Assembly: GCF_015291705.1 (NCBI RefSeq)
Contig: NZ_CP030050.1
Coordinates: 3,038,001-3,102,000, forward strand
Reading direction: 5' to 3'
Origin: Bradyrhizobium arachidis
Lineage (GTDB): Bacteria; Pseudomonadota; Alphaproteobacteria; Rhizobiales; Xanthobacteraceae
Length of the DNA stretch: 64,000 nucleotides
Part shown: one piece after another, positions 2,255 through 17,754 of the stretch
Layout: each line of letters begins with the position of its first letter
Numbering within the stretch: position 1 is the stretch's first letter
Translations under genes and position numbers: made by a program
Notes under the pieces: model-generated
What the model was told of the DNA's origin: nothing
The model's database searches: none
What the model saw: only the letters and a program-made list of their open reading frames with translations

Positions 2255-2297
2255 GTTGATTCCGAAAATCGGCGGTCTAAGCCGCAAGGAGCGGAGA

Positions 2298-3263
2298 TCA
2301 GGCCCCCTTTGGGGACCAGATCTTGATGGCCGTGGTGTCGATCTTCACGGGGATCAGACCCTCGGCGTGGAATGCGTCTGCAATTCGCTGCTGCTCCGAT
2401 AGGCCCGGGCCGGTGACCGCGCCCACCTGATAGGAGCGATGGCTGTTGGCCTCCTCGACGGTGGCGGCATCGATACCCCAGAGGCCCGCGAGCAATGTGG
2501 CGGCGTCCTTCGGCTGGGCCTTCACCCATTTGCCAGTCTCGGAGAGCTTTGCGAAGATCACGTTGAGCACTTCGGCATGCTTGTCCGCATAAGTGGCCGC
2601 GGCGAGGTAATAGCGCTTGTAACTCGCAAGGCCATTGCTGCCGTCGGACAGGATACTGCCTTTCGTTTGGTGCAGAGCGCTGGTCAGGAACGGATCCCAG
2701 GCGACCCAGGCATCGACATTGTTGCTGACGAAGGCCGCGCGGCCGTCCGCCGGGGTGAGGTAGGCGGGCGTGATGTCCTTGAAGCTCAGCCCGGACTTCG
2801 CGAGCGCCGCAAGCAGCAGATAGTGGCTGCCGGCGCCCTTGGTCACCGCGATCTTCTTGCCCTTGAGATCGGCGATGGACTTGAGTGCGGACGACTGCGG
2901 CACCACGATCGCCTGCGCCGCCGGCGAGGCGGCCTCCTCGGCGACATAGGCAAGCTTTGCGCCAGCGGCCTGCGCGAAGATCGGTACGGTGTCGGCGACG
3001 TCCGCGCCGAAATCGATGCTGCCGATATTGATGGCTTCCAGCAGCGGCAGGCCGCTGGTGAATTCGTGCCAGGACACCGTGACGCCGAGCGGCGCCAGTG
3101 CCTTCTCCAGCTCACCGTTTGTTTTCAGGATCGCCGTCAGGGTCGAGGATTTCTGATAGCCAATGCGGATCTCCTCGGACATCGCAGGCTGAACGGTCGC
3201 CATGGCGAAGATGCCGAGCGCAGCCGCGGCGAGCGTCCGCAGGCGGGAGGTGGAACGAGACAT
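2298..3263 (-). CDS. SsuA-like aliphatic sulfonate ABC transporter substrate-binding protein
   Basis: A 321-residue periplasmic binding protein of the SsuA/NMT1 type. It has a Sec signal peptide (hydrophobic core about residues 9-26, cleavage expected after AMS at 29). The mature protein opens with EIRIGYQKSSTLTAILKTNG, followed by the SsuA-like GSIDFGADVADTVPIFAQAAG and DLKGKKIAVTKGAGSHYLL. It has no permease or ATPase beside it, and could use either of the two SsuBC pairs in the window (10740-12372, 27931-29585). A 194-bp gap separates it from the LLM gene upstream on the same strand. Confidence 0.88.
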   Translation of the reverse strand: MSRSTSRLRTLAAAALGIFAMATVQPAMSEEIRIGYQKSSTLTAILKTNGELEKALAPLGVTVSWHEFTSGLPLLEAINIGSIDFGADVADTVPIFAQAAGAKLAYVAEEAASPAAQAIVVPQSSALKSIADLKGKKIAVTKGAGSHYLLLAALAKSGLSFKDITPAYLTPADGRAAFVSNNVDAWVAWDPFLTSALHQTKGSILSDGSNGLASYKRYYLAAATYADKHAEVLNVIFAKLSETGKWVKAQPKDAATLLAGLWGIDAATVEEANSHRSYQVGAVTGPGLSEQQRIADAFHAEGLIPVKIDTTAIKIWSPKGA

Positions 3264-3457: not shown

Positions 3458-4858
3458 CTATTCGGCGGCATCGGATCTCAGATTGTCGGCTGAGCGCCGA
3501 TAACGCGCGCCGGGATGCGTCGCGTGCAGTCGCGGACCGCGTCCAGGGAAAAGCTTTTCGCGCAGCGTGCCGTCGCGATAGGCGGTCTTGTAGACGCCGC
3601 GCGATTGCAGCTCGGGCACCACGAGATCGACGAAAGCGTTCAGCGATTCCGGCGCGACCAGGCGAAACAGGTTGAAGCCGTCGACATCGGTTTCATCAGC
3701 CCAGGCGATCAGCTCGTCGGCGACATCCTGCGGCGAGCCGACCACGAAAGGCGAGCGAGCGCCGGCGCGGCTCAATCCGGCGAGGTCGCCGACATTGACC
3801 GGCCGGTCGCTCCGGACCGTGAAATTCTCGACCATCGACTGGATGGCGTTGCTCTCGACATACTCGATCGGCTGGTCCGGCCGATAGGTCGAGAAGTCGA
3901 TGCCGGTCCAGCCCGACAACAAGGCGAGCTGCCCGGTCTGGTCGACATGCCGTGCGTAGTCCTCGAGCAGATCATTCGCCTCGGACCGCGTCGGCGCCAC
4001 GATCACGGTCGCGCCGGCAAACAGGCGGATGTCGTAGGGATCGCGGCCATGGGTCTTCGCGGCCTCCCGGATTTCGCGGACGGCGCGTGCAAGGATTGGC
4101 CTGGTCTGGCCGTTGAGAAAGATCGCTTCTGCGTGTTGGGCGGCGAAGGCGCGGCCGCGCTTAGAGGTGCCGGCCTGATACAAAAGCGGCGTTCGTTGCG
4201 GCGAAGGCTCGGCGAGATGAATGCCATCGACCCTGAAGTAGGGGCCTTCATGCAGAACCCGGTGGAGCTTTGCGGGGTCCGTGAAGATGCGGCTGCCGCG
4301 GTCGCGGCGAACCGCATCGTCCTCCCAGCTTCCCTCCCAGAGCTTGTAGGCCGCAGTGAGAAAGTCTTCGGCCGCGTCATAGCGGTCGTCGTGGGCGCGG
4401 CCGGCCGGCAAACCCATGCCGCGCGCGCCGCTGTCGAGATAGCCGGTGACGATATTCCAGCCGATCCTGCCTTTCGTAAGGTGGTCGAGCGTCGAAAACG
4501 TGCGCGCGAGTTGATAGGGATGCTCGAAGGTCAGGTTGGATGTGATGCCGAAGCCGAGATGGCGGGTGACGAGCGCCATGGCGGACACGAGCAGGGTCGG
4601 GTCCGCGTTAGGAAGTTGCACCGCATGACGGGCGGCGGCATCGGCAGTGCCGCCAAAGACGTCGTACACGCCGAATACATCCGCCAGGAAGATGCCGTCG
4701 AGCAGTCCACGCTCAGCGGTCTTGGCGTAGTCGACCCAATAATCCAGCGTGTTGTAATCAATGGACGCATCGCGCGGATGAGACCACAGGCCCGCCCAAT
4801 TGTGGCTCGGCGCGGTCATGTTGAAAGCGTTGAAGCGTAGCTCGCGCGGTCGCGTCAT
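3458..4858 (-). CDS. NtaA/DmoA-type LLM FMN-dependent monooxygenase
   Basis: A 466-residue flavin monooxygenase, third LLM member of the cluster. It shows the N-terminal RFNAFNMTAPSHNWAGLW, the flavin-side TRHLGFGITSNLTFEHPYQL, LDHLTKGRIGWNIVTGYLDS and the substrate-side TPLLYQAGTSKRGRAFAAQH. These match nitrilotriacetate, dimethylsulfide and dibenzothiophene sulfone monooxygenases. I chose the ATG at 4858; the frame is open 84 bp further but those residues look non-coding. It is divergent from metY across 254 bp that hold a 10-bp inverted repeat (4931-4966). A sulfur-compound substrate is inferred from the adjacent SsuA-like and MetY genes. Confidence 0.9.
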   Translation of the reverse strand: MTRPRELRFNAFNMTAPSHNWAGLWSHPRDASIDYNTLDYWVDYAKTAERGLLDGIFLADVFGVYDVFGGTADAAARHAVQLPNADPTLLVSAMALVTRHLGFGITSNLTFEHPYQLARTFSTLDHLTKGRIGWNIVTGYLDSGARGMGLPAGRAHDDRYDAAEDFLTAAYKLWEGSWEDDAVRRDRGSRIFTDPAKLHRVLHEGPYFRVDGIHLAEPSPQRTPLLYQAGTSKRGRAFAAQHAEAIFLNGQTRPILARAVREIREAAKTHGRDPYDIRLFAGATVIVAPTRSEANDLLEDYARHVDQTGQLALLSGWTGIDFSTYRPDQPIEYVESNAIQSMVENFTVRSDRPVNVGDLAGLSRAGARSPFVVGSPQDVADELIAWADETDVDGFNLFRLVAPESLNAFVDLVVPELQSRGVYKTAYRDGTLREKLFPGRGPRLHATHPGARYRRSADNLRSDAAE

Positions 4859-4930
4859 GATCTGGCTCGATCGTCTATTTGCGAAGCACATTCGCTGCGC
4901 GTGACTGTTACTAGCATTTTGTGCGAGCGA

Positions 4931-4966
4931 GTTTGTTTCCAATTCGGCAAAGGCGCGGAAACAAAC
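4931..4966. promoter_or_regulatory. Inverted repeat between divergent monooxygenase and metY genes
   Basis: Two perfect 10-bp arms, GTTTGTTTCC (4931-4940) and GGAAACAAAC (4957-4966), are separated by 16 bases. The dyad lies 73 bp upstream of the LLM start at 4858 and 146 bp upstream of the metY start. Its placement in a divergent promoter region suggests an operator, but no regulator gene lies next to it, and a transcript hairpin is the alternative. Confidence 0.5.
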
Positions 4967-5112
4967 GCGTTGCGAGGCGGCGATGATGCAGCACGTGCAT
5001 CGCTATTTTTCGGACACGCTCGACAGAGGCGGAATCCGGCCACATCATTTTGATCGACAAGGATGGCGGGCCGCGAACGGCGCGCACTATCGAGATCGAA
5101 AGGGAAAAGCAG

Positions 5113-6432
5113 ATGGCCTTGGAAACCCGGAATTTCGAGACGCTCGCGCTGCACGGCGGATCGTACCGCACCGATCCCGCCACCGGCGCAGTCGCGGTTC
5201 CGATCTACCAGACCACGTCATTCCAGTTCGAGAACGCCGATCATGCTTCGCGTCTGTTCGCGCTCGAGCAACTCGGCCCGATCTATACCCGCATCGGCAA
5301 TCCGACCCAGGAGGCGTTCGAGACGCGGCTCGCCGCGCTGGAGGGCGGTGTGGCGGCGCTTGCCGTCGCCTCGGGGCAGACCGCCTCCGCCTTCGCGATC
5401 TTCAATATCGCGCAAGCCGGCGACAACATCGTGTCATCGACCGATCTCTACGGCGGGACCTGGACGCTGCTCTCGCAGACCCTGAAGCAGTTCGGCATCG
5501 AGGTCCGCTTCGTCGATCCCTCCGACCCTGAAAACTTCCGTCGCGCGACCGATGCGAAGACGCGGGCCTACTTTGGCGAGACGCTCCCGAACCCCAAGCT
5601 GAACGTGTTCCCGATCAAGGAGGTCGCGGATATCGGCCGCTCGCTGGGCGTGCCGTTGATTCTCGACAACACGGCCTCGCCCCTGATCGCGCGACCGTTC
5701 GAGCACGGTGCCGCAGTGGTGGTCTATTCCACGACAAAATATATCGGCGGCCATGGCACGGCAATCGGCGGCGCCATCGTCGACGGCGGCAACTTCGACT
5801 GGGCTGCCCATGCCGAGCGCTTCCCGCTGCTGAACAAGCCCGACGAGGCCTATCACGGCGCGATCTGGACCGAGGCGGCGAAGCCGCTCGGACCGATCGC
5901 CTACATCCTGCGAGCCCGCGTCAAGCTGTTGCGGGACCTCGGTGCATCCATTGCGCCGCAGAACGCCTTCCAGTTCATCCAGGGTCTCGAGACCTTGCCG
6001 CTGCGCATCCGCCAGCACAACGAGAATGCGGTGAAGGTCGCGAATTTCCTCGCCAAGCATCCTTCGGTGTCGAACGTGATCTTCCCAGGGCTGCAGAGCG
6101 GCGAGAACAAGCGCCGGGCCGACGCGTATCTGAAGGGCGGCTACGGCGCCTTGGTCGGCTTCGAGCTCAAAGGCGGTGTCGAGGCCGGCCGGCGGTTCAT
6201 CGACGCACTCAAGCTGTTCTATCACGTTGCCAATATCGGCGATGCCCGGTCGCTTGCGATTCACCCGGCGTCGACGACGCACCAGCAGCTCACCCCAGCC
6301 GAGCAACTCGCCGCCGGCGTTACCCCGGGCTACGTTCGCCTCTCGGTCGGGATCGAGCATCCCGACGACATCCTGGCAGATCTCGGCCAGGCGCTGGCGC
6401 AGGCCGAGGCCGGTGCGCGCAAAGCCGCGTGA
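5113..6432 (+). CDS. metY: O-acetylhomoserine aminocarboxypropyltransferase (sulfhydrylase)
   Basis: A 439-residue PLP enzyme of the Cys/Met metabolism family. It makes homocysteine from O-acetylhomoserine and sulfide in the cytoplasm. The PLP-binding lysine is in VVYSTTKYIGGHG (Lys209), the PLP-ring aspartate in LILDNTASP (Asp185), and the phosphate-site motif YTRIGNPTQEAFE begins near residue 58. The full-length N-terminus, TRNFETLALHGGSY, is typical. The start is the ATG at 5113, preceded by AGGGAAAAG. It leads an operon with the MetQ-type gene 20 bp downstream. In this setting it would trap sulfide derived from organosulfur compounds; the alternative thiol-accepting role cannot be excluded. 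Confidence 0.93.
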   Translation: MALETRNFETLALHGGSYRTDPATGAVAVPIYQTTSFQFENADHASRLFALEQLGPIYTRIGNPTQEAFETRLAALEGGVAALAVASGQTASAFAIFNIAQAGDNIVSSTDLYGGTWTLLSQTLKQFGIEVRFVDPSDPENFRRATDAKTRAYFGETLPNPKLNVFPIKEVADIGRSLGVPLILDNTASPLIARPFEHGAAVVVYSTTKYIGGHGTAIGGAIVDGGNFDWAAHAERFPLLNKPDEAYHGAIWTEAAKPLGPIAYILRARVKLLRDLGASIAPQNAFQFIQGLETLPLRIRQHNENAVKVANFLAKHPSVSNVIFPGLQSGENKRRADAYLKGGYGALVGFELKGGVEAGRRFIDALKLFYHVANIGDARSLAIHPASTTHQQLTPAEQLAAGVTPGYVRLSVGIEHPDDILADLGQALAQAEAGARKAA

Positions 6433-6452: not shown

Positions 6453-7265
6453 ATGGAAATTGAGACAGTGAAAATCCTTCGTCGTACCGCCCAGGCCGCG
6501 GGTCTCTGGCTCGCGTTCACCGCGGCCGCCTTCGCCGGCGAGCCCCTGAAGATCGCGACCAGCGCCGGCCCGGTTGGCCAACTGGCCTCGTTTGCCGCCA
6601 AACTCGCCAAGGACAAGGGGCAGGACGTCAAGATCGTCGAGCTCTCGGACTGGGTCGCATTGAATGAGGTCGTGAACAGCGGCGAGGTCGATGCCAATCT
6701 GTTCCAGCATGCGACTTATCTCGCGCTTCAGAACAAGCAGCGTGGATTCAATCTGGTGCAGGCCGACAAGGTCGGCGTGATCGCGCCCGTCGGGCTGTTC
6801 TCGAAGAAGATCAAGACGCTCGACGAGATCAAGTCCGGCGACAGCGTCGCCATTCCGAACGAGCCGCTCAACGGCGCCCGCGGATTGATCCTGCTGGAGC
6901 GGGCAGGCTTGATCAAGCTGACGCCAGGCAAGGGCTTTTCGGTCAGCAAGTTCGACATCACCGACAACCCCAAGAATCTGAAGATCGTCGAGCTTGATCC
7001 GGCGCAGACCTACCGATCGCTGGACGACGTGACGCTGGCGCTCGTCAACATCACCTACCTCATTCCGGCCGGTGGCGATCCCAAGTCGGCGCTCATCATC
7101 GACCGCACCGTTGATGATGGGCTCGTGCTGCGCTTCACGGCACGGCCCGACAAGAAGGACGATCCGCGCCTGAAGGCATTTATCCAGGTGTTCAACTCGC
7201 CAGAAGTGAAGCAGTTCATCGAAGAGAAGATCCCGGCGTTCATTCCGGCGGGGTTCAGCAGCTAG
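6453..7265 (+). CDS. MetQ/NlpA-family ABC substrate-binding protein (first copy)
   Basis: A 270-residue NlpA-type binding protein, related to methionine-binding MetQ. Family signatures include NEVVNSGEVDANLFQHATYL, APVGLFSKKIKTLDEIKSGD and VAIPNEPLNGARGLILLERAG. The signal peptide ends near AAFAG and has no lipobox cysteine, so it should be soluble and periplasmic rather than a lipoprotein. An alternative GTG start at 6468 would give a more compact signal peptide. It lies 20 bp after metY. No MetN ATPase or MetI permease is nearby. The ligand may be methionine or another small sulfur compound. Confidence 0.88.
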   Translation: MEIETVKILRRTAQAAGLWLAFTAAAFAGEPLKIATSAGPVGQLASFAAKLAKDKGQDVKIVELSDWVALNEVVNSGEVDANLFQHATYLALQNKQRGFNLVQADKVGVIAPVGLFSKKIKTLDEIKSGDSVAIPNEPLNGARGLILLERAGLIKLTPGKGFSVSKFDITDNPKNLKIVELDPAQTYRSLDDVTLALVNITYLIPAGGDPKSALIIDRTVDDGLVLRFTARPDKKDDPRLKAFIQVFNSPEVKQFIEEKIPAFIPAGFSS

Positions 7266-7585: not shown

Positions 7586-8368
7586 ATGAGACGTCGCTTG
7601 TTGCTCGTGATGGCCGCCTTTGTACTGTTCGCCGCGCCGGCCTCCGCGGATCAGAAGATCAAGGTCGGGATATCGGGCGGGGATGCCGAAATCGTCTGGG
7701 CCAAGGTCAAGGAGATCGCCGCCAAGGACGGCCTCGATGTGCAGGTTGTCGTCTTCAACGATTATCTGTTGCCCAATGCCGCGCTTGACGTCGGCGATCT
7801 CGATGCGAATGCCTTCCAGCACAAGCCGTTCCTGGACAATCAGATCAAGACGCGGGGATACAAGATCGTCGCCGTCGGCGAGACGATCGTCGCTCCGATC
7901 GGGCTCTATTCCAGAAAGGCGAAGTCGGTTGCCGAGATCAAGGAGGGCGCGTCAATCGGTATCCCGAACGATCCGTCGAACGGTGGCCGTGCGCTGCGGC
8001 TGCTTCAGGCGGAAAAGCTGATCGAGCTGAAGGATGGCGTAGGAATTCTGCCGACCGCGCTCGATGTGACCGGAAATCCCAAAAAGCTCAAGATCCGCGA
8101 AATCGACGCCGCCCAGCTGCCACGTAGTTTGGACGACGTCGATGCCGCCGTCATCAACACCAATTACGCCGTCCCGGCCGGCCTCATTCCGGGCAAGGAT
8201 TCCATCGCGATCGAATCCTCGGTCAATAATCCCTACAACAACTTCATCGCCGTTCGCGAGAAGGACAAGGATGCCACTTGGGTCGCCAGGCTGGTGCGCG
8301 CCTATCAGAACGACACGATCCGCCAGACCATCAAGGACAAATTGCCGGGTCAGATACCCGCGTTCTGA
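7586..8368 (+). CDS. MetQ/NlpA-family ABC substrate-binding protein (second copy)
   Basis: A 260-residue NlpA/MetQ-type periplasmic binding protein with a signal peptide ending ASADQK. Signatures match the first copy: LDVGDLDANAFQHKPFLDNQ, APIGLYSRKAKSVAEIKEG and IGIPNDPSNGGRALRLLQ. It has a clear AAGGAG ribosome-binding site. It sits 24 bp before the flavoprotein gene, so ligand binding and the flavoprotein/ferredoxin module are probably co-expressed. It is diverged from the first copy and may bind a different ligand. It also lacks a lipobox cysteine and a cognate ATPase or permease. Confidence 0.9.
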   Translation: MRRRLLLVMAAFVLFAAPASADQKIKVGISGGDAEIVWAKVKEIAAKDGLDVQVVVFNDYLLPNAALDVGDLDANAFQHKPFLDNQIKTRGYKIVAVGETIVAPIGLYSRKAKSVAEIKEGASIGIPNDPSNGGRALRLLQAEKLIELKDGVGILPTALDVTGNPKKLKIREIDAAQLPRSLDDVDAAVINTNYAVPAGLIPGKDSIAIESSVNNPYNNFIAVREKDKDATWVARLVRAYQNDTIRQTIKDKLPGQIPAF

Positions 8369-8392: not shown

Positions 8393-10021
8393 ATGACAAA
8401 CTCACCTGGTCGCGCCGAGAAGCTGTCGAGTTCGGCAGGATCCGTCATGTTCGACGCGGATGTGCTGGTGCTCGGTGGCGGTCCCGCGGGCACCTGGGCC
8501 GCGATCAGCGCCGCGGAACATGGTGCGCGCGTCGTGCTGGCGGATAAGGGATTTTGCGGTACCTCAGGTGCGACTGCGGCCGCCGGCACCGGCGTTTGGT
8601 ATGTCGATCCCGCTCCGGAGCGCCGCGAGGCCGCGATGGCCAGCCGTGAGAAACTCGGTGGCCACCTCCAGGATCGCCGCTGGATGGCGCGCGTGCTGGA
8701 CCGGACCTACGCCCAGAGCAACCAGCTCGCCGACTGGGGCTATCCTTATCCCGCCGATGACGATGGCAGGCCGCAGCGGAATTCGCTCCAGGGCCCGGAG
8801 TACATGCGGCTGATGCGCAAGCGGACCAAGCAGGCCGGCGTGACCATCCTCGATCATTCGCCGGCGCTCGAACTGCTGGTCGATGGCAACGGCGTGGTTG
8901 CGGGAGCTACGGGCTTGCGCCGCCAGAAGGGGGATCGTTGGGCGGTCAACGCCAAGGCCGTGGTGATCGCCACTGGCGGATGCGCCTTTCTCAGCAAGAC
9001 GCTCGGTTCGAACGTCCTGACCGGCGACGGCTATCTCCTCGCTGCGGAGGCGGGTGCGGAATTCACCAGCATGGAGTTCTCCAACGCCTACGCGATCTCG
9101 CCGGCGTTCGGATCGGTGACCAAGACCTTGTTCTACAGCTGGTCGAGCTTCACCGATGAGCAGGGCAGCGTCATTCCCGGAGCGTCGTCGAAAGGTGGAC
9201 GCTCCGTGATTGCGCGCGCGCTCCGTAAAGGCCCCGTGTACGCGCAGCTTGACCAGGCGGACGCGGAGACCCAGCGGCACATGCGCGTGTCCCAGCCGAA
9301 CTTCTTTCTTCCGTTCGACCGCACCGGTATCGATCCCTTCACGCAACGTTTTCCGATCACGCTGCGCCTCGAAGGAACCGTTCGCGGGACAGGCGGCCTG
9401 CGGATCATCGATGACAGTTGCGCGACCACCGTGCCGGGTCTCTACGCGGCAGGCGATGCAGCGACGCGCGAATTGATCTGCGGTGGCTTCACCGGCGGCG
9501 GCAGCCACAATGCCGCCTGGGCGATGTCTTCGGGGCATTGGGCCGGCCAGGGCGCCGCCGAGTTTGCGCGACAAATGGGTACGACGAGCGGGCGTCAGGC
9601 CTTCCGACGCGGCACCGTTGGCCTGCGATCTGGCGGCGGTCGTCCGTTGCAGGGCAGCGCCCTCGCGCGGAGCGTTCAGGACGAGGTGTTCCCCTACGAG
9701 CTGAATTACTTCCGCGAGGCCGGACGACTGGGCGAGTCGCTCCGTCGGCTGGATGCATTGTGGTCCGATGCGTCGGCTGCCGATGCACCGGACGAGAAGG
9801 AACTGTTACGTGCACGCGAAGCGGCCGCCATGCTCGCGACCGCGCGCTGGATGTATCGCAGCGCGCTGACGCGTCAGGAAAGCCGGGGAATGCATCGCCG
9901 CGACGATTACCCCGAGCAGGACGACCGTTACCTCCATCTGGTGACGAGCGGCGGGCTCGATGATGTCTGGACGTCCGCACGTCCGCTGGCGTCTGCGCAA
10001 TATGCGGAGGCCGCGGAATGA
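8393..10021 (+). CDS. SdhA/FrdA/AprA-superfamily FAD-dependent oxidoreductase (module 1, large subunit)
   Basis: A 542-residue flavoprotein of the fumarate reductase/succinate dehydrogenase/APS reductase superfamily. The FAD dinucleotide fold is DVLVLGGGPAGTWAA (residues 23-37), followed by GFCGTSGATAAAG. A second FAD contact, PGLYAAGDAATREL, is near residue 348 and is followed by the glycine-rich FTGGGSHNAAWA. The C-terminal helical part has RQESRGMHRRDDYPEQDD, as in SdhA/AprA. It has no signal peptide, so it is cytoplasmic. Its stop overlaps the ferredoxin start as ATGA, implying a stoichiometric complex. It is a clear paralog of 13851-15452. The reaction is unknown; APS reductase and SdhA are distant relatives, not close matches. 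Confidence 0.88.
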   Translation: MTNSPGRAEKLSSSAGSVMFDADVLVLGGGPAGTWAAISAAEHGARVVLADKGFCGTSGATAAAGTGVWYVDPAPERREAAMASREKLGGHLQDRRWMARVLDRTYAQSNQLADWGYPYPADDDGRPQRNSLQGPEYMRLMRKRTKQAGVTILDHSPALELLVDGNGVVAGATGLRRQKGDRWAVNAKAVVIATGGCAFLSKTLGSNVLTGDGYLLAAEAGAEFTSMEFSNAYAISPAFGSVTKTLFYSWSSFTDEQGSVIPGASSKGGRSVIARALRKGPVYAQLDQADAETQRHMRVSQPNFFLPFDRTGIDPFTQRFPITLRLEGTVRGTGGLRIIDDSCATTVPGLYAAGDAATRELICGGFTGGGSHNAAWAMSSGHWAGQGAAEFARQMGTTSGRQAFRRGTVGLRSGGGRPLQGSALARSVQDEVFPYELNYFREAGRLGESLRRLDALWSDASAADAPDEKELLRAREAAAMLATARWMYRSALTRQESRGMHRRDDYPEQDDRYLHLVTSGGLDDVWTSARPLASAQYAEAAE

Positions 10022-10338
10022 TCGAGGTTATCGATGCGGAACAGTGCACGGCCTGCGACATCTGCGTGAGCGTGTGCCCGACCAACGTCTTCGACAAGAC
10101 CGACGGCATTCCCAGGATCGCACGTCAAAGCGACTGCCAGACCTGCTTCCTGTGCGAGCTCTATTGTCCCGAGGATGCGCTGTTCGTCTCGCCGTTCGCC
10201 GACGCGCCGCAAGCGGTCGACGTGGCGGCGTTGAAGGAGGCGACCATGCTGGGCAGCTATCGGCGTGCCGTGGGCTGGGTCGAGGAGAGTCGGCACCTGC
10301 GGGCGGCCGATCGGAGTTATCGGCTGTTCGGCCATTGA
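10018..10338 (+). CDS. 2x[4Fe-4S] ferredoxin subunit (module 1, small subunit)
   Basis: A 106-residue bacterial-type ferredoxin. Two complete clusters are visible: Cys10, 13, 16 and 20 (QCTACDICVSVCP) and Cys40, 43, 46 and 50 (DCQTCFLCELYCP). This fits a partner that passes electrons to or from the FAD of the preceding subunit, as AprB does for AprA, but it is shorter than AprB as I know it. Its ATG overlaps the flavoprotein stop by four bases. The tail after residue 60 (SYRRAVGWVEESRHLRA) is shared in outline with the second ferredoxin and may be the docking element. Confidence 0.9.
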   Translation: MIEVIDAEQCTACDICVSVCPTNVFDKTDGIPRIARQSDCQTCFLCELYCPEDALFVSPFADAPQAVDVAALKEATMLGSYRRAVGWVEESRHLRAADRSYRLFGH

Positions 10339-10365
10339 AAGTCATGTCGTCTCTGGAGGCCGGCC

Positions 10366-10713
10366 ATGAGCGGAGATCGCCTCTTTCTGTTGAAGCCGGG
10401 ATTTGAAGATCCCGAGCAGCCGGGCCGCTTCTTCGTCTGCCCGCACTGCAATGCAATCGAGGGGTTGCTGGCGTCGTTCCCCGGGCTGGCAACGCAGATC
10501 GAAGTGCAGCGCCTGCCATTCACGCGGCCGCGAACGGCGCTGGTCGATATCTTGGGCGAGCAGCATCAGTCGCTTCCGGTTCTGGTCTTTGATGAGAACC
10601 GGCCGGTGCCTGAGGACGCCGGCGTCGCCAACGGCCGGCGCTTCTTCGATTCCTCGGAGCGAATACTGCGCTATCTGGCCGACCGCTACGCATTCCCGCA
10701 CGTTCACCAATAG
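10366..10713 (+). CDS. DUF3088 family protein with CPHC motif
   Basis: A 115-residue protein I assign to DUF3088 from memory of the family: an N-terminal RLFLLKPGFEDPEQPG, then FFVCPHCNAIEGLLASFP with a CxxC at residues 25-28, and later HQSLPVLVFDENRPVPEDAG. The CPHC and overall length suggest a thioredoxin-like or glutaredoxin-like fold, which is an inference. It follows the ferredoxin gene by 27 bp on the same strand, with GGAGG upstream of its ATG, so it is likely the last gene of the metY-to-ferredoxin operon. A role as redox accessory or metal/thiol carrier for the module is possible. Confidence 0.72.
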   Translation: MSGDRLFLLKPGFEDPEQPGRFFVCPHCNAIEGLLASFPGLATQIEVQRLPFTRPRTALVDILGEQHQSLPVLVFDENRPVPEDAGVANGRRFFDSSERILRYLADRYAFPHVHQ

Positions 10714-10739
10714 GACTGATCGGGATCGCCGGCATTCCC

Positions 10740-11564
10740 CTAGGTTTGCACCTGTCCCCAGCGCTGCACCGTGATCCGCGTCAGCGTCCGGAAGATCAGG
10801 CCTTCCACGACAAGACCAACCACGATCACGGTGAGCAATCCGGCGAAGACGCTTGCCGTCTCCAGCTGCGCACGGCTGGTGTAGATGAACCAGCCGATCC
10901 CGCCGGACCGCGCGCTGACGCCGAACACAAGCTCGGCCGCGATCAGGGTACGCCAGGCGAAGGCCCAACCGATCCGCAGGCCCGACAGGATCTGGGGAAA
11001 TGCCGCCGGCACCAGGATCTCCGCGACGAACCGGCCCCCCGAGAGGCCCAGGTTGCGGCCGGCCATTCGTAAAGTCGGCGGCACCGCGAGGAAGCCGCCA
11101 TAGCAGGCGAGGGCCACCGGCCACAGAACGGAGTGCACAATGACGAAGATGAGACTCGGCGTTCCCACACCAAACCACAGCAGAGCAATAGGAAGAAGCG
11201 CGATGGCGGGAAGCGGATTGAACATCGACGTCAACAGGCCAAGAGCCTCATTGCCCCAGCGCGACAGGGCGGCGAGGGTCGTCAGCACCGCGGCGACGGC
11301 AACGCCCAGCGCATAGCCGGTGATGAGAACCCGCAGCGAGGTCAACGCGCGGTTTGGCAGCTCGCCCGACAGGACGGCCGACCACAGCGCCGATAGCGTT
11401 GCGCCCAGGGTCGGCAGCAGAAGTGCGTTGTCGAGCCAGCGTGCATAAAGCTCCCAGGCAAGCGCAAAGCCGGCGAGGATGATGAAGCGCCGCCAGGGCG
11501 TTCCCTCGAGCGCCCGCCGCAGCGCTGGCGCACGAACGAGTTTTGGGGCCGCGACGTCAGACAT
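10740..11564 (-). CDS. SsuC/TauC-type ABC transporter permease (importer 1)
   Basis: A 274-residue inner-membrane permease of the nitrate/taurine/sulfonate importer family. About six membrane segments are visible. The cytoplasmic coupling (EAA) loop is VPPTLRMAGRNLGLSGGRF, preceded by IALLWFGVGTPSLIFVIVHS. The start is the ATG at 11564, overlapping the ATPase stop by eight bases. The longer open frame to 11660 only reads through the ATPase gene. It forms an importer with the ATPase and binding protein upstream in the same minus-strand operon. Confidence 0.9.
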   Translation of the reverse strand: MSDVAAPKLVRAPALRRALEGTPWRRFIILAGFALAWELYARWLDNALLLPTLGATLSALWSAVLSGELPNRALTSLRVLITGYALGVAVAAVLTTLAALSRWGNEALGLLTSMFNPLPAIALLPIALLWFGVGTPSLIFVIVHSVLWPVALACYGGFLAVPPTLRMAGRNLGLSGGRFVAEILVPAAFPQILSGLRIGWAFAWRTLIAAELVFGVSARSGGIGWFIYTSRAQLETASVFAGLLTVIVVGLVVEGLIFRTLTRITVQRWGQVQT

Positions 11565-12372
11565 GGTCGACTTCCGGGGCAGAAAACACGGTCTCCTGGA
11601 TGCGCCGCTCCAGCTCGCCGAAACCCGAGCTGCCGCGGGCGCGCGTTTCCGGCGGGACATCGAAGGTGGCGGCCAGCCGTCCCGGGTGCGGCGTCAGCGC
11701 CAGGATGCGGGTTCCGACGCGAATCGCCTCGTCGATGCCATGGGTCACGAACAGGGCGGTGTTTCCGGTTTCATCGCACAGCTTGAGCAGTTCGTCCTGC
11801 ATCTGCCGCCGCGTCAGCGCGTCAAGCGCGGCGAACGGTTCGTCCATCAGCAGCAGCGCCGGCTCCAGCGCGAAGGCCCGCGCGATCGCGACGCGCTGTT
11901 TCATGCCGCCGGACAAGGTATGGGGGAAGGCGTCGATGAAGTTCTTCAATCCGACGCGCTCAAGCCAGCGCCGCGCAATGCCCTCTGCATCTCGTCGCGG
12001 CAGCGATTTTCCTCGCTCCAGGGCATAGCGGACATTGCCGAGCACAGTGCGCCACGGCAGCAATTGGTCGAACTCCTGAAACACGGTCATGCGGTCGGGC
12101 CCCGGGGCTCCGATCCGCCGGCCGTTCATGCGCATTTCACCGGCGCTTGGCTTGAGGAAACCGCCCACCGCACGCAGCAGTGTGGACTTGCCGCAGCCCG
12201 ACGGACCCAGCAGGATCAGCCGTTCGCCGGCCGCGAGCGTGAAGCTGACATCCTCGACCGCGGTGAGGATGCCTTCGCGCGTCGGATAGCTGATGCTGAC
12301 GTGATCGAGCTTGAGCAGCGTCGACGACGTGGTGTCGCCGACGAGGCCAGTCAGTCGCGGAGCGACGTTCAT
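11557..12372 (-). CDS. SsuB/TauB-type ABC transporter ATPase (importer 1)
   Basis: A 271-residue ABC ATPase of the nitrate/sulfonate/taurine class. Walker A is GPSGCGKST (56-64), the signature LSGGMKQR (153-160), Walker B LLLMDEP (173-179), and the switch histidine is in FVTHGIDEA. The FQEFDQLLPWRTVLGNV stretch after the Q-loop is typical of SsuB/TauB. It lies one base after the binding-protein gene and overlaps the permease gene by eight bases, so the three are surely one operon. Confidence 0.93.
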   Translation of the reverse strand: MNVAPRLTGLVGDTTSSTLLKLDHVSISYPTREGILTAVEDVSFTLAAGERLILLGPSGCGKSTLLRAVGGFLKPSAGEMRMNGRRIGAPGPDRMTVFQEFDQLLPWRTVLGNVRYALERGKSLPRRDAEGIARRWLERVGLKNFIDAFPHTLSGGMKQRVAIARAFALEPALLLMDEPFAALDALTRRQMQDELLKLCDETGNTALFVTHGIDEAIRVGTRILALTPHPGRLAATFDVPPETRARGSSGFGELERRIQETVFSAPEVDHV

Positions 12373-12373
12373 A

Positions 12374-13378
12374 TCAGCTTCCCGGCTTCTCTCCGAGGCC
12401 GGACCAGAACAGGTCCCGCCATGACGCCGGCGCCTGCTTGATCAGGCCGACCTTGGCCTCGAAATCCGCGAACTTCTGGGCGCCCTCGGGAGCCGTCGTG
12501 AAGTTGACGTCCTTGTCGCGAATGATGCTCTCGACGAAGTCGGGGGCAAGCTTCGATCCCTCCGCCTTGATGTACAGCGCGGCAGCTTCCTTCGGATTGG
12601 CCTTGATCCATTCATTGGCGCGATCAAGGCCGCGGACGAACGCCAAAATCGTCTTGGGGTTGTCGTTGACGAACTTCGTGGTGGAATAGACCACGTTGAA
12701 AGTGTGGGGCCCGCCGAGCACATCGTAGCTGTTGAGGACCTGATGCACCTTGCCGCTCGCTAGTTGTTGCTGCGAGAACGGCGGCGAGGTGAAATGTGCC
12801 GTGATTTCCGAATGCCCGGAGAGGATCTGGGCCGTCGCGTCGGGATGCGGCATGCTGACGGTGAGCTCGTCAAGCTTGTCGTATTTGCCGAACGCCTTGT
12901 CCGCCGCCATCTGGAGGACGATCGGCTGAAAGCCGACCTTGACCGAGGGAAGCGCGATCCGGTCCTTCTCGGTGAAGTCGGCCAGCGTCTTGATATTGGG
13001 ATTGTTGGTGGTCAGGATGTTCGCCATCGAGCCGAGCGCAGCGACGCCAATGATCTTGGCCGTGGTCCGCGTCTTGTCCCAGGTCAGGATCATGGGCGTG
13101 ATGCCGGCCGTTGCGAAATCGAGGCCGCCTGAAATCAGCGCCTCGTTCATGGCCGCCGCGCCGGACAGCCGGAGCCATTCGACCTTTGGCGGCGCAATGC
13201 CGAGGGCCTTGGCTTCTTCCTCGATCAGCCCCTTTTCGCTGGCGACGATCAGCGGAAGGTAAGCGATGCCGAATTGCTGGGCGATGCGAAGCTGGCCCGT
13301 TTCAGCGCGCACACTATTCGCGCCACCCAGCGTAATGATCAGCGCGAGCGCCGCCTGCAAAAGCCTCGACCTATTCAT
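12374..13378 (-). CDS. NMT1/TauA-like ABC substrate-binding protein (importer 1)
   Basis: A 334-residue periplasmic binding protein. The Sec signal runs to about SVRAET (residue 26). The mature N-terminus, LRIAQQFGIAYLPLIVASEK, and LISGGLDFATAGITPMILTW are typical of nitrate/sulfonate/taurine binding proteins. I chose the ATG at 13378, preceded by AAGAGACG; the longer frame to 13435 is less likely. It heads the importer operon and is divergent from the second flavoprotein gene, with 472 bp between. The ligand is not determined; a sulfonate or sulfur ester is inferred from neighbours. Confidence 0.9.
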   Translation of the reverse strand: MNRSRLLQAALALIITLGGANSVRAETGQLRIAQQFGIAYLPLIVASEKGLIEEEAKALGIAPPKVEWLRLSGAAAMNEALISGGLDFATAGITPMILTWDKTRTTAKIIGVAALGSMANILTTNNPNIKTLADFTEKDRIALPSVKVGFQPIVLQMAADKAFGKYDKLDELTVSMPHPDATAQILSGHSEITAHFTSPPFSQQQLASGKVHQVLNSYDVLGGPHTFNVVYSTTKFVNDNPKTILAFVRGLDRANEWIKANPKEAAALYIKAEGSKLAPDFVESIIRDKDVNFTTAPEGAQKFADFEAKVGLIKQAPASWRDLFWSGLGEKPGS

Positions 13379-13613
13379 GTTGACGTCTCTTGAATTCCCA
13401 TTCGTCCGACGGCTCACCACGAGCCATTGCGGCACACTTCAGGAAATCAATCAGCCGGTCCAGTGAACTGATGTCGCTGCGCAATTTTCGAAACAAATCC
13501 GCTTGGCCAACTGCATCGGCAGGAGATCTGTTCTTCAATCGATCTGTATCAAAGAAGTCTGTTCCCTTGCCTTGAAGGGCTTCGATCCAATTTCTCGCGT
13601 CGGGCAGGACCAC
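13371..13613 (-). CDS. Possible 80-residue leader protein upstream of importer 1
   Basis: A GTG-started frame of 80 codons whose stop overlaps the start of the binding-protein gene by eight bases (CAACATGAATAG). The composition is protein-like, with the charged amphipathic run ADLFRKLRSDISSLDRLIDF, but I recognise no domain. It lacks a good ribosome-binding site. The overlap would allow translational coupling. It may instead be chance coding in a 472-bp divergent promoter region. Confidence 0.3.
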   Translation of the reverse strand: MVLPDARNWIEALQGKGTDFFDTDRLKNRSPADAVGQADLFRKLRSDISSLDRLIDFLKCAAMARGEPSDEWEFKRRQHE

Positions 13614-13850
13614 ACGACAGCGAGAAGCTTCGTTTTACTCCCTGTCCTCGCTGGAGAAGTCTGTTCTATGCCAGAATAGCCATCTTCTCGACTTCGCCAC
13701 AGGCCACACGACTCGTTCGCTGCGAGGCGTCAAAAGAGTTTTACCTTTCATTGACGCGAGTACGGCCCGCCTCAAACATGGGTCACCGGGTGCCGCTCGG
13801 CATCAGCAGGTGCCGGCGGAGCGGCTAGTGCGTTACGAGAGATCAGGATC
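13379..13850. promoter_or_regulatory. Divergent promoter region between importer 1 and module 2
   Basis: This 472-bp stretch separates the minus-strand importer operon from the plus-strand flavoprotein operon. It must hold both promoters. Apart from the weak 80-codon frame above, I see a widely spaced CGAGAAG (13621) and CTTCTCG (13684) inverted pair and an AGGA ribosome-binding site ahead of 13851. No confident promoter hexamers or operator could be fixed by eye. Confidence 0.45.
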
Positions 13851-15452
13851 ATGATGTCTTCCGCGCTCGAAGAATTGTCGATAGCGACCGACGTGCTGAT
13901 CGTCGGTGGCGGGATGGCGGGCGCATGGGCCGCGACGTCTGCCGCCGAGGCGGGGGCGAAAGTCGTTCTGGTCGACAAGGGCTATTGCGGCACCAGCGGC
14001 GTGACGGCCGCGGCAGGACCGGGCCATTGGTGGGTCCCGCCGGATCCTCCGTCGGCCCGCGATACGGCTGTCGCCAATCGTATCGCGAGCGGCCTCGGTC
14101 TCGGCGAAGCGGACTGGATGTATCGCATTCTCGATCAGACCTGGCGCTCGCTGCCAACACTGGCGCGCTATTACAAGTTCGGCGCGGATGACGATGGGCG
14201 TGTAAACTATCGCGCGGTGCGCGGGCCCGAATATATGCGCGCGCTGCGGCAACAGGTGCTGAGCCACGGTGTCACCATCCTCGATCATTCGCCCGTCCTC
14301 GAACTTCTGGCGCGGTCCGACGGCTCGATCGGCGGTGCCCGCGGCCAGCGCCGACAGGACGGCGGGAGAGCCTATCGGATCGAGGCAGGGGCGGTGATCC
14401 TTGCGGCCGGCGGGACCAGCTTCCTGTCCCATCTTCTGGGCTCGCGAACCAACACCGGGGACGGCTATCTCATGGCGGCCGAAGCGGGCGCGGAGATGTC
14501 CGGCATGGAGTTCACTGCGGCCTACACCATTGCGCCCGCGCATTCGACGATGACGCGAAGCATGGCTTATGCGTTCGCAACCTATTACGACGCCGACGGG
14601 CACGAGCTCGATCTTCCGTTCGGCCCCGACCAGACCATTCGCCTGGCGCGCGCGCTCCAGCGCGGTCCGGTCTACTGCTCGCTGCATCGTCTACCCGACG
14701 ACATCAAGGCGCGGCTGCACACGATATCGCCGAACGTCCCGTTGGTGTTCGACCGCTGGGGGGTCGATCCCTATCGCGACCGCTTCGAGGTGACATTGCA
14801 CAATGACGGCACCATTCGCGGCATCGGCGGGGTGCGGGTGCACGATGTGGATGGCAGGACATCGGTTCCGGGATTGTTCGTAGCCGGCGACAACGCATCG
14901 CGCGAGAAGGTTGCAGGCGCCATCTCCGGTGGCGGCAATGTCAACTCGGCCTGGGCGCTTTCGTCCGGTGTGCTCGCCGGGCGTGCTGCGGCAGGCCTGG
15001 CGCGCGGCACGACGAGTGCGGGCCGATTGCGGCCACTTGGCCGCGCCGGGCGGGAGCCTCGCAGGGGCGCCAGGGCCGTCGATCTTGCCGCGCTTCGTAA
15101 CGGCGTGCGCGCCGAAATGCACCCGTTCGACAAAAATCTATTGCGCACCGGGCAAGGACTTGCAGCATCTGCACACGTGCTCAAGGGCTTGTGGACCGAG
15201 TTGGTCGATCACGCAGACGCAGGCACAATCGCCTCGCGCGAGACGGCGGCTCTATTGGCAACAGCGCGCTGGTCCGTCGCCACGGCGGCAACACGTAAGG
15301 AGAGCAGGGGCCTTCATCGCCGCGAGGATTTCCCTTCACGGGATTCCGGGCTTGCAGTCCGTCTGCTTAGTGGCGGCCTGGACCAGGTCTGGGTCGCTGT
15401 CGACGGTGCTCCTGCGGATGCCAAGACCGGTCAACTCGAGGCGGCTTCATGA
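13851..15452 (+). CDS. SdhA/FrdA/AprA-superfamily FAD-dependent oxidoreductase (module 2, large subunit)
   Basis: A 533-residue paralog of the flavoprotein at 8393. FAD fold: DVLIVGGGMAGAWAATSAAE (19-24 for GGGMAG), then GYCGTSGVTAAAG. Shared internal blocks are RGPEYMRALR, GVTILDHSPVLELL, TGDGYLMAAEAGAEMSGMEF and GTIRGIGGVRV, then PGLFVAGDNASREK and RKESRGLHRREDFPSRDS at the C-terminal helical domain. Two adjacent ATGs (13851, 13854) could start it. Its stop overlaps the ferredoxin ATG. It is cytoplasmic and of unknown reaction. The mid-region around residues 230-260 differs most from the first copy, suggesting a different substrate. Confidence 0.88.
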   Translation: MMSSALEELSIATDVLIVGGGMAGAWAATSAAEAGAKVVLVDKGYCGTSGVTAAAGPGHWWVPPDPPSARDTAVANRIASGLGLGEADWMYRILDQTWRSLPTLARYYKFGADDDGRVNYRAVRGPEYMRALRQQVLSHGVTILDHSPVLELLARSDGSIGGARGQRRQDGGRAYRIEAGAVILAAGGTSFLSHLLGSRTNTGDGYLMAAEAGAEMSGMEFTAAYTIAPAHSTMTRSMAYAFATYYDADGHELDLPFGPDQTIRLARALQRGPVYCSLHRLPDDIKARLHTISPNVPLVFDRWGVDPYRDRFEVTLHNDGTIRGIGGVRVHDVDGRTSVPGLFVAGDNASREKVAGAISGGGNVNSAWALSSGVLAGRAAAGLARGTTSAGRLRPLGRAGREPRRGARAVDLAALRNGVRAEMHPFDKNLLRTGQGLAASAHVLKGLWTELVDHADAGTIASRETAALLATARWSVATAATRKESRGLHRREDFPSRDSGLAVRLLSGGLDQVWVAVDGAPADAKTGQLEAAS

Positions 15453-15826
15453 TCGAGCTTATCGTCGCGGACCGCTGTACGGATTGCGGGACATGCATCG
15501 AGGTTTGTCCAGCTAATGTGCTCGACGCCGGGCAAGGCGGCCTGCCGATCCTTGCGCGTGTCGAGGATTGCCAGACGTGCTTCATGTGCGAGCTCTATTG
15601 TCAGGCCGACGCCATCTACGTTGCACCCGATTGCGACCGCCGTGTCGCCGTCGACGAGGCGGAGGTAGTGACCTCCGGTCACCTCGGTCAATACCGCAAA
15701 CACTCCGGCTGGGACGAATGGTCCGATCGTTTCCCAAACGAGCAATGGCTGATGGAGACCGTTTTCCGTCGCGCCGGCGAGGCCGCGGCGAAGGCGACGT
15801 CGGCTGACGTTATCCGCACGAAGTGA
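15449..15826 (+). CDS. 2x[4Fe-4S] ferredoxin subunit (module 2, small subunit)
   Basis: A 125-residue ferredoxin with clusters at Cys10, 13, 16, 20 (RCTDCGTCIEVCP) and Cys41, 44, 47, 51 (DCQTCFMCELYCQ). The second cluster has Gln where a proline normally follows the last cysteine. It overlaps the flavoprotein gene as ATGA, as in module 1. It has an extra 20-residue basic/alanine-rich C-terminus compared with the first ferredoxin. The shared LGQYRKHSGWDEWSD-type region may bind the large subunit. Confidence 0.9.
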   Translation: MIELIVADRCTDCGTCIEVCPANVLDAGQGGLPILARVEDCQTCFMCELYCQADAIYVAPDCDRRVAVDEAEVVTSGHLGQYRKHSGWDEWSDRFPNEQWLMETVFRRAGEAAAKATSADVIRTK

Positions 15827-15962: not shown

Positions 15963-16955
15963 ATGAATACCCCCCGAATTGAAGGCCAGCGCGCATCCGC
16001 CAGCGTGCGATCGCCGATCGTCGTCAATCAGCTTGGCCCGGACGTTCGTGCCGCGCTGGCCGATCACTGGTCGCGTCCGCTGATCATCGATCATCCCGCC
16101 GATCGCGCGCCCTGGGCGATCGCTCCGGAAGCCGACGTGCTGCTGACGCGGCCGCTCGCCGGATGGCACAAGGCGCCTGCGGAGAAGCCGGCCGGCTGGC
16201 CATTCGGCCTGCGCTGGATCCAGACCGCATCGACGGGCGTCGATTTCTTTCCGACGTGGCTGCTCGATGGCCCGGTCGTTACGGTCGGCCGCGGCATCTC
16301 GGCTGATCCAATTGCGGAATATGTCCTTGCGGCGATCCTCGGCTTCGAAAAGCGCATCCACGACATCCGGCCGCGCAGCCGCGAACAATGGAAGATTGCT
16401 CCGCTCGGTTCGCTCAGCGGCAAGACCATCGGGATCGCGGGCTTCGGCGCGATCGGCCGCGCCGTGGTGGAGCGGGTCAAGCCGTTCGGCGTCAACATCA
16501 GGGTTTTGCGGCGCTCAGGCTGGCCATATGTTCTCCCGGGCATTCAGCCTGTCGGCAGCATCGAGCAGTTGGTCGAGGTTTCCGATCATCTCGTTCTTGC
16601 CCTGCCGGCGACGACGAAGACGGCGCGTCTCATCAACGCCGACGTGCTGGCACGCGCCAAGACGTCGCTGCACCTGATCAATGTCGCACGTGGACGGATC
16701 GTCGATCAGAGCGCTCTGTTACAGGCGCTTGATGAGGGACGGATTGCCGGCGCGACGCTCGATGTCACCGACCCCGAGCCGCCGCCGGAAGGCGATCCGA
16801 TCTATGACCATCCCAAGGTCGTCCTGACCCCGCATGTGTCGTGGACGGGTGGCGAGGATGCCAAGCGGCTGGCCGACAAGACGCTGGTCAACCTCGACGC
16901 CTATGCGCATGGCGTGGCGCTGGCCGACGTCTTCGACAGGAATCTCGAATACTAG
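15963..16955 (+). CDS. D-isomer-specific 2-hydroxyacid dehydrogenase, NAD(P)-binding
   Basis: A 330-residue dehydrogenase that would interconvert a 2-oxoacid and a D-2-hydroxyacid. The dinucleotide motif is GFGAIG (160-165). The catalytic set is complete: Arg243 (VARGRIVD), Glu272 (DPEPP) and His291 (TPHVSWTG). The N-terminal substrate domain is short and diverged. It starts 136 bp after the module 2 ferredoxin and is 16 bp before the aldolase-family gene, so these two form a pair. It may process the carbon skeleton left after desulfonation; that is inference. No signal peptide. Confidence 0.88.
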   Translation: MNTPRIEGQRASASVRSPIVVNQLGPDVRAALADHWSRPLIIDHPADRAPWAIAPEADVLLTRPLAGWHKAPAEKPAGWPFGLRWIQTASTGVDFFPTWLLDGPVVTVGRGISADPIAEYVLAAILGFEKRIHDIRPRSREQWKIAPLGSLSGKTIGIAGFGAIGRAVVERVKPFGVNIRVLRRSGWPYVLPGIQPVGSIEQLVEVSDHLVLALPATTKTARLINADVLARAKTSLHLINVARGRIVDQSALLQALDEGRIAGATLDVTDPEPPPEGDPIYDHPKVVLTPHVSWTGGEDAKRLADKTLVNLDAYAHGVALADVFDRNLEY

Positions 16956-16971
16956 AAAAGGAGCCGCAACA

Positions 16972-17754
16972 ATGAACAAGGTCGTCGAGAAGCCGAAGAA
17001 ATACTCCCTGGTCGAGCGCACGCCGGCCGCGACGTTCGAGGAGGAGCGGCTGCATCGCAAGCAGCGGCTTGCCGCAACCTTCCGCCTGTTCTCGCGCTAC
17101 GGTTTCGATCAGGGCCTCGCAGGCCATGTCACCGTGCGCGATCCGGAGTTTCCCGAACGGTTCTGGATCAACCCGCTGTCGAAGCATTTCAGCCAGATCA
17201 AGGTGTCCGACCTTCAACTGGTCGATCACGACGGCAACATCCTGATCGGCGACAAGCCGATCAACCAGGCCGGCTTCGTGATTCACTCGGCGATCCACGC
17301 GGCGCATCCGGAAGTGATCGCGGCGGCCCACACCCATTCGACCTACGGCAAGGCGTGGTCGGCGCTCGGTCGTCTGCTCGATCCGCTGACGCAGGACTCC
17401 TGCGCGTTCTACGAGGATCACGTGCTATTCGATCCCTTCTCCGGCGTCGTGCTGGAGGCGGAAGAGGGCCGCAAGATCGCACAGGCGCTGGGATCGAAGA
17501 AGGCCGCCATCTTGCAGAACCACGGCCTGCTCACGGTCGGACCGACCATCGAGGCGGCCGCATGGTGGTACATCGCGATGGACAATGCCGCGCGCGCTCA
17601 GTTGCTTGCCGAGGCCGCCGGCACCCCAAAGCCGATCCCGCACGAGATCGCCAGCCTGACCTCGCGGCAGGTCGGTACGCACAAGGGCGGCTATTTCAGC
17701 TTCCAGCCGCTCTGGGACTGGATTACCGAGGCCGAGCCGGATCTGTTCAACTAG
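16972..17754 (+). CDS. Class II aldolase/adducin family protein
   Basis: A 260-residue class II aldolase-family protein. Zinc ligands are seen as AHTHS (His120, His122) and LQNHGLLTVG (His184); GLAGHVTVRDP near residue 48 is the conserved phosphate/substrate loop. The start is the ATG at 16972 after AAAGGAG. Members cleave or decarboxylate sugar-phosphate or hydroxy-oxo substrates; some, in sulfolactaldehyde or C4 pathways, act with dehydrogenases like the preceding gene. Its 3' end overlaps the convergent flavoprotein gene by eight bases. The substrate is not known. Confidence 0.9.
   Translation: MNKVVEKPKKYSLVERTPAATFEEERLHRKQRLAATFRLFSRYGFDQGLAGHVTVRDPEFPERFWINPLSKHFSQIKVSDLQLVDHDGNILIGDKPINQAGFVIHSAIHAAHPEVIAAAHTHSTYGKAWSALGRLLDPLTQDSCAFYEDHVLFDPFSGVVLEAEEGRKIAQALGSKKAAILQNHGLLTVGPTIEAAAWWYIAMDNAARAQLLAEAAGTPKPIPHEIASLTSRQVGTHKGGYFSFQPLWDWITEAEPDLFN

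Follow-up and report, generated by a model that had tools for sequence, protein, structure and literature searches.

What is the role of two flavoprotein/ferredoxin gene pairs that lie among organosulfur genes in Bradyrhizobium arachidis? The pairs, hereafter A and B, are located in a stretch of 64,000 nucleotides (nt) of NZ_CP030050.1 (the window), within a single-contig genome of 9.87 Mb, and comprise the following features:

8393..10021, plus strand: flavoprotein A, alpha subunit binding flavin adenine dinucleotide (FAD), 542 amino acids (aa); open reading frame (ORF), Pfam, AlphaFold2 model and fold comparison
10018..10338, plus strand: ferredoxin A, 2x[4Fe-4S] beta subunit, 106 aa; ORF, Pfam and alignment
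10018..10021, plus strand: ATGA stop/start overlap of pair A, read in the sequence
13851..15452, plus strand: flavoprotein B, 533 aa; ORF, Pfam and alignment with A
15449..15826, plus strand: ferredoxin B, 125 aa; ORF, Pfam and alignment
15449..15452, plus strand: ATGA stop/start overlap of pair B, read in the sequence

We propose, with a probability of about one half, that each pair encodes a soluble, importer-linked two-subunit oxidoreductase that would reduce an imported organosulfur anion. Sequence comparisons show the pairing, the gene coupling, the predicted fold, the distribution of the family, its association with importers, its own clade and its altered active site; in addition, we infer that the two subunits form a complex, that the substrate is an organosulfur compound and that the reaction is reductive. 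The main alternative is a dehydrogenase, and the second is an enzyme acting on a sulfur-free substrate.

Both pairs and their identical ATGA overlaps, described in a first-pass annotation of this DNA, were confirmed by the ORFs, their translations and Pfam, in which FAD_binding_2 and Succ_DH_flav_C score above cut-off in both flavoproteins and Fer4 in both ferredoxins. The copies are paralogous, as had been proposed, with 46% identity between the flavoproteins and 46% between the ferredoxins. All eight cluster cysteines are conserved between the ferredoxins, and the lowest similarity of the flavoproteins is found around residues 235-300 of copy A, in agreement with the retained cluster residues and divergent mid-region reported earlier. 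A genome search with flavoprotein A retrieved copies A and B, the remaining matches not exceeding 25.5 bits; genes for SdhA (802 bits) and a NadB-like protein are located elsewhere in the genome. The ORFs and domain matches of the window show no gene for a membrane anchor next to the pairs.

At least 546 relatives were confirmed in GTDB species genomes by a search with a 19-row alignment, and the best 80 of these loci were used as a census, which is therefore skewed to close relatives. By title, these comprise 20 loci from Bradyrhizobium (the source of the best named matches to flavoprotein A), 13 from other Alphaproteobacteria, one from a metagenome-assembled genome (MAG) of the Moraxellaceae and 46 from cyanobacteria. 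They contain 92 full-length flavoprotein genes (96 ORFs minus four shorter than 480 aa); a ferredoxin gene comes next after 83 of them, with a 4-nt overlap in 64 of those 83, so that both the pairing and the overlap are more than a chance arrangement. The nine flavoproteins without a ferredoxin comprise one at a contig end and eight from the Nostocales, which form a single clade (support 100/100). In six of these eight Nostocales loci (L044, L054, L062, L067, L068, L072, L078 and L086) the next gene belongs to a major facilitator superfamily transporter cluster.

The AlphaFold2 model, which covers flavoprotein A, has the fold of the complex II and APS reductase flavoproteins (APS, adenosine 5'-phosphosulfate), and active-site positions were taken from sequence alignments. 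The residue counts refer to 70 family rows from the best 120 matches per copy, mostly Alphaproteobacteria. The likeness to AprAB that had been pointed out, an FAD alpha subunit with a 2x[4Fe-4S] beta subunit, was found in the family, and two active-site columns also agree with AprA (a Tyr, and a position that is Lys in AprA and basic in the family). The same layout and fold, together with these columns, would suit a divergent assimilatory APS or 3'-phosphoadenosine 5'-phosphosulfate (PAPS) reductase, which we nevertheless consider highly improbable. In agreement with the earlier failure to recognize APS-specific features, flavoprotein A scores far below the curated AprA cut-offs (TIGR02061, 42.3 versus 641.75; NF005331, 70.9 versus 557), as does flavoprotein B (NF005331, 55.6 versus 557; TIGR02061 is not among its 25 best matches listed). 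Three residues that we take to be active-site residues of AprA, the Asn of SAIN, the Arg of RFKDGYG and the His of GHKFSSGS, are present in 6/6 AprA rows and in 0/70 family rows, which have no residue aligned to the Asn and Arg, and Asn, Ser or Ala at the His. The Trp beside the first Cys of cluster II (CWxC), found in 5/5 AprB proteins encoded next to six AprA genes, is replaced by Gln in 82 and Glu in one of 83 family ferredoxins, cyanobacterial ones included. Moreover, the AprA sequences form a separate clade, and the genome contains a CysH-like gene elsewhere (162 bits, below the 235-bit cut-off). APS/PAPS reductase was thus rejected on the curated cut-offs, the residues, the beta-subunit Trp and the separate clade.

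Another close known system, at about 21% identity, is the Methanothermococcus thermolithotrophicus PAPS reductase (PDB 8a8o; PMC10322725), which carries the electron-transfer residue Trp42 in its beta subunit, where the family has Gln/Glu (DCWDC versus DCQTC). Its active site differs from that of the family except for one or two AprA-type residues; its Lys120-Arg121-Ser122 loop was compared in a single, weak pairwise alignment. The family neighbours organosulfur importers rather than ATP sulfurylase and APS kinase. Its chains of 571 and 104 aa also show that the subunits of pairs A and B, although shorter than AprAB as the first-pass annotation had stated, are not unusual in size.

The best fold matches include FrdA and NadB. 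Members of this fold family mostly act on C-C or C-N bonds, by oxidation or reduction, and the main alternative is a flavoprotein that oxidises such a bond in an imported sulfonate, or in the product of one, the electrons leaving via the ferredoxin, so that the oxidised molecule becomes cleavable by an oxygenase or aldolase. Against it, the His and Arg residues of SdhA and NadB are mostly replaced: the QFHPT His shared by SdhA/FrdA and NadB is Y/F in the family, the VHY His is I/V or D/E depending on the alignment, and the ANRL Arg is N/S/A, each original residue being kept in 0/70 rows. The column of the catalytic Arg of the RD motif differs between alignments that disagree, with T/R/M/I/N in one and Arg275 in 61/70 rows in another. 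The Glu of the SdhA/FrdA TE motif is Arg or Lys in 70/70 rows, by which the former dicarboxylate site gains a positive charge. At the SHT motif, which holds the covalent-FAD His of SdhA/FrdA, no residue aligns to that His in 70/70 rows, and Ser58-Gly59 are found. In the curated SdhA/FrdA and NadB models the best scores are 131 versus 718 for A (TfrA) and 112 versus 639 for B (NadB). The family pairs also lack an SdhB-type partner, and differ from NadB in the ferredoxin gene that follows the flavoprotein. The residues and scores, together with the SdhA and NadB-like genes elsewhere in the genome, led us to reject both a fumarate/succinate enzyme and the aspartate oxidase NadB. The family is therefore neither an APS reductase nor a complex II flavoprotein; it is covered by no curated model, and some database names of its members (L-aspartate oxidase, succinate dehydrogenase) are misleading. 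The matches of the ferredoxins to an HgcB-like model (45.9 and 37.1 versus a cut-off of 99) were read as generic Fer4 similarity. A well-characterised close homologue, which had been named beforehand as a possible refutation, was not found, the best solved relatives scoring about 60 bits. No description of the pair was recognised in full-text searches, which miss most subscription papers; the passages of PMC6515984, PMC13352529, PMC5987646, PMC8557817, PMC5218467 and PMC11852219 that these yielded contain none.

The 37 family rows of a 50-row tree cluster together (99/98), apart from six AprA (100/100) and from six SdhA, of eight loci intended, with one NadB (100/99). The tree is midpoint-rooted, without a true root, and NadB, one AprA and one cyanobacterial row are flagged as long branches. 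Copies A and B fall in separate four-row subclades, each supported at 100/100, and both types co-occur in a Xanthobacteraceae MAG (L059). A recent duplication of the modules was rejected on these two grounds, and A and B are old paralogues of one family. They likely act on different substrates, as had been suggested; the separate subclades and the different neighbours of the two copies support this indirectly. At E <= 1e-60 the distribution is patchy, with 1/289 genomes of the class (the genome itself) and 26/244 of the bacterial family positive, five or six candidates per genome being scored in these surveys. Within the search of the bacterial family, three genomes of the genus are positive and at least 20 listed ones are negative. 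At the same threshold, 59 plasmid records match, including Paenibacillus, Pseudonocardia, Nocardia, Cupriavidus metallidurans, Azospirillum and Rhizobium, which adds Bacillota and Actinomycetota. The pairs belong to a widespread family that resembles a known sulfate-reducing enzyme but is distinct from it.

The neighbours of the 80 census loci were grouped by single-linkage clustering, the clusters being named from one or few members. ATP-binding cassette (ABC) ATPases, SsuB-like and others, are found near 60 loci, two clusters of SsuA-type binding proteins near 46 and 30, and SsuC near 43. Among the enzymes, SsuD/SfnG-like luciferase-like monooxygenases (LLMs) are found near 41 loci, NtaA/DmoA LLMs and SfnB/DszC-like proteins near 24 each, TauD near 21 and MetY near 18. 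MetQ/NlpA is found near 21 loci, an OprB porin near 33 and a 2-hydroxyacid dehydrogenase near 29.

A control test compared 20 family loci, drawn from 20 of the 26 matching genomes, with 34 other stretches from genomes of the same bacterial family (36 retrieved minus two short ones); one test locus is only 13 kb long, and three are probably the same records as census loci L024, L059 and L070. The SsuA-type binding protein was found in 20/20 test loci versus 1/34 controls and SsuC in 19/20 versus 2/34; the recurring unit is the pair together with an SsuA-type ABC importer. TauD-like proteins (7/20 versus 0/34), SfnB/DszC-like proteins (6/20 versus 1/34), an NAD_binding_9 flavoprotein (4/20 versus 0/34) and a class II aldolase (3/20 versus 0/34, p 0.046) were also more frequent, all p-values being nominal because control stretches share genomes. 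One or more of five markers for sulfur enzymes (MetY, SsuD, SfnB/DszC-like and two LLM types) was present at 52/80 named loci versus 2/34 controls: 19/20 in Bradyrhizobium, 9/13 in other Alphaproteobacteria, 0/1 in Moraxellaceae and 24/46 in cyanobacteria. The control test led us to reject a background effect as the origin of this context. A neighbour survey in other genomes had likewise been named as a possible refutation; it found the sulfur association, and the organosulfur setting recurs elsewhere. In Nostoc sp. 'Peltigera membranacea cyanobiont' 210A, a distance of 3.8 kb, which includes an OprB porin gene, separates the pair from ssuDCB on the opposite strand, whose SsuD scores above the curated cut-off (600.5 versus 518.2).

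Eight plasmid regions, hand-picked from 40 listed of the 59 records, were analyzed additionally, and in 8/8 the ferredoxin follows the flavoprotein. Haematobacter and Paracoccus aminophilus have the bare unit (pair, binding protein, two permeases, ATPase), with cysDN starting about 6.4 kb after the ferredoxin in P. aminophilus. In Pseudonocardia, TauD, importer genes and an LLM precede the pair; in Rhizobium etli, an LLM, two SfnB and MetNIQ-type genes lie beside it; and in Azospirillum a MetY-type gene precedes and an SsuA-type importer follows it. The plasmid of Paenibacillus cellulositrophicus (L186, 7974-12944) has two pairs with 4-nt overlaps and an importer in one gene run, the pairs being arranged around a single binding protein; the two-module layout therefore also exists in Bacillota.

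Several results weigh against an organosulfur reductase. No marker of the five was found at 28/80 named loci, nor by tblastn in 4/8 plasmid regions (L184, L185, L186 and L190), although cysDN is annotated in L185. The core-unit binding proteins do not reach the cut-off of SsuA_fam, and the eight Nostocales copies mentioned above have no ferredoxin. In the control test, NtaA/DmoA LLMs (4/20 versus 2/34), SsuD/SfnG LLMs (2/20 versus 0/34), MetQ/NlpA (3/20 versus 1/34), MetY (1/20 versus 0/34) and the 2-hydroxyacid dehydrogenase (1/20 versus 1/34) did not differ significantly. Part of this evidence, namely the marker-free loci, Haematobacter and Paenibacillus included, and the low-scoring binding proteins, as well as amidohydrolases in several units, would fit an SsuA/NMT1-type importer for some other small anion or a heterocycle, on which the pair would act, the sulfur genes being coincidental neighbours. 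We consider this unlikely, in view of the repeated association with MetY, MetNIQ, SfnB, SsuD or TauD in Alphaproteobacteria, cyanobacteria and Pseudonocardia, and of the control test.

For the dehydrogenase, the neighbourhood offers the 2-hydroxyacid dehydrogenase of the census and the class II aldolase of the control test; pair B, which is followed by genes of both kinds, could form such a route. The export of electrons through two [4Fe-4S] clusters without a visible membrane anchor would be unusual in aerobes, and we regard this alternative as possible but tentative.

Under the preferred reading, each pair would be a soluble oxidoreductase of an unnamed family, in which the alpha subunit binds FAD and the beta subunit, with its two [4Fe-4S] clusters, docks on it. 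It would be served by its own ABC importers, of the SsuA type at most loci and of the MetQ/NlpA type at copy A, and its substrate would be an imported organosulfur anion or the first breakdown product of one. Electrons would pass from reduced ferredoxin through the clusters to the flavin for a two-electron reduction of the substrate; oxygenases encoded nearby, of the LLM, SfnB/DszC-like or TauD-like kinds, could then release its sulfur, or MetY could take it up. The direction is probably reductive, because low-potential clusters are expected, no membrane anchor was seen, and oxidised sulfur needs to be reduced for assimilation; that we infer the direction entirely in this way also weighs against the proposal. 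The pairs probably help bacteria to obtain sulfur from organic compounds. As regards the first-pass annotation, its paralogous modules, AprAB-like layout and organosulfur setting hold, and the genomic context supports an organosulfur intermediate as substrate; no result points to sulfite, the other substrate it had offered.

A more specific version, by analogy with the flavin attack on sulfur proposed for APS/PAPS reductase, would be a ferredoxin-driven, oxygen-free cleavage of organosulfur compounds in aerobes and cyanobacteria, the reduced flavin attacking the sulfur in the imported sulfonate or a related anion and releasing sulfite or sulfinate. We regard it as improbable; if true, it would be the reductive counterpart of SsuD and TauD. 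To our knowledge, the known aerobic routes of organosulfur scavenging (SsuD, TauD, SfnG, DszAC) are all oxygenase-based, and an importer-tied flavoprotein-ferredoxin in rhizobia, Azospirillum, Nostoc, Paenibacillus and Pseudonocardia would add a hitherto unknown redox step. The binding proteins beside the pairs make the question of the substrate directly testable. According to a passage of PMC7784912, deletion of the putative alkanesulfonate monooxygenase Npun_F5882 stops Nostoc punctiforme from colonising feathermoss; in view of this result and of the ssuD beside the pair in the lichen Nostoc, the family may be relevant to how plants and nitrogen fixers exchange sulfur.

The neighbouring genes in the window are as follows:

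914..2287, minus strand: NtaA/DmoA-family LLM (526.4 versus cut-off 279.7)
2298..3263, minus strand: SsuA binding protein (SsuA_fam, 196.4 versus 163.5)
3458..4942, minus strand: NtaA/DmoA-family LLM (524 versus 279.7)
5050..6432, plus strand: metY, O-acetylhomoserine sulfhydrylase type (TIGR01326, 604.8 versus cut-off 495.1)
6453..7265, plus strand: MetQ/NlpA lipoprotein 1 (profile matches)
7586..8368, plus strand: MetQ/NlpA lipoprotein 2 (TIGR00363, 269 versus cut-off 228.85)
10740..11660, minus strand: SsuC-like permease (profile matches)
11557..12372, minus strand: SsuB-like ATPase (ABC_tran)
12374..13435, minus strand: SsuA-like binding protein (SsuA_fam, 98.7 versus 163.5, below cut-off)
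15963..16955, plus strand: 2-hydroxyacid dehydrogenase-like gene 3' of pair B (profile matches)
16834..17754, plus strand: class II aldolase/adducin family (PRK06208, 442 versus 255); the listed start overlaps the preceding gene and the true start may be further in

The LLMs, SsuA (2298-3263), SsuBC and metY had been correctly recognised, but the supposed SsuA-like genes directly before pair A are MetQ/NlpA lipoprotein genes; an SsuA-like protein does lie next to pair B, but with a score below the cut-off. The order of metY, the two MetQ/NlpA genes and pair A, all on the plus strand with gaps of 20, 320 and 24 bases, had been overlooked, and it suggests that these genes may share a transcript. 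The ssuABC-like set sits between the pairs and is divergent from pair B. A scan of the ORFs on either side of the MetQ/NlpA genes (6453-8368) revealed no recognisable MetN or MetI gene. In other Bradyrhizobium (L014-L023), a MetN-like ATPase gene follows the ferredoxin of pair A, with NlpA genes further on; the ATPase at L016 12000-13121 scores 377 versus 499.7 with TIGR02314.

An SsuD/SfnG-like LLM gene (1-855, plus strand; 141.6 bits to TIGR03565, below cut-off) crosses the left edge, so that the organosulfur island begins outside the window. An NAD_binding_9 FAD/NAD(P)-binding protein is encoded at 17747-19105 on the minus strand, and a relative directly follows the ferredoxin in L059 (12025-13431); it is a possible electron partner of the pair. 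Finally, GroEL-type chaperonin genes lie near the flavoprotein in L013 (14111-15838, Cpn60 by Pfam) and, as assigned by cluster, in L070 (749-2371), L044 (2633-4273) and L054 (7111-8751), and in two of these loci, L013 and L070, they are preceded by a 95-aa ORF that may represent groES.

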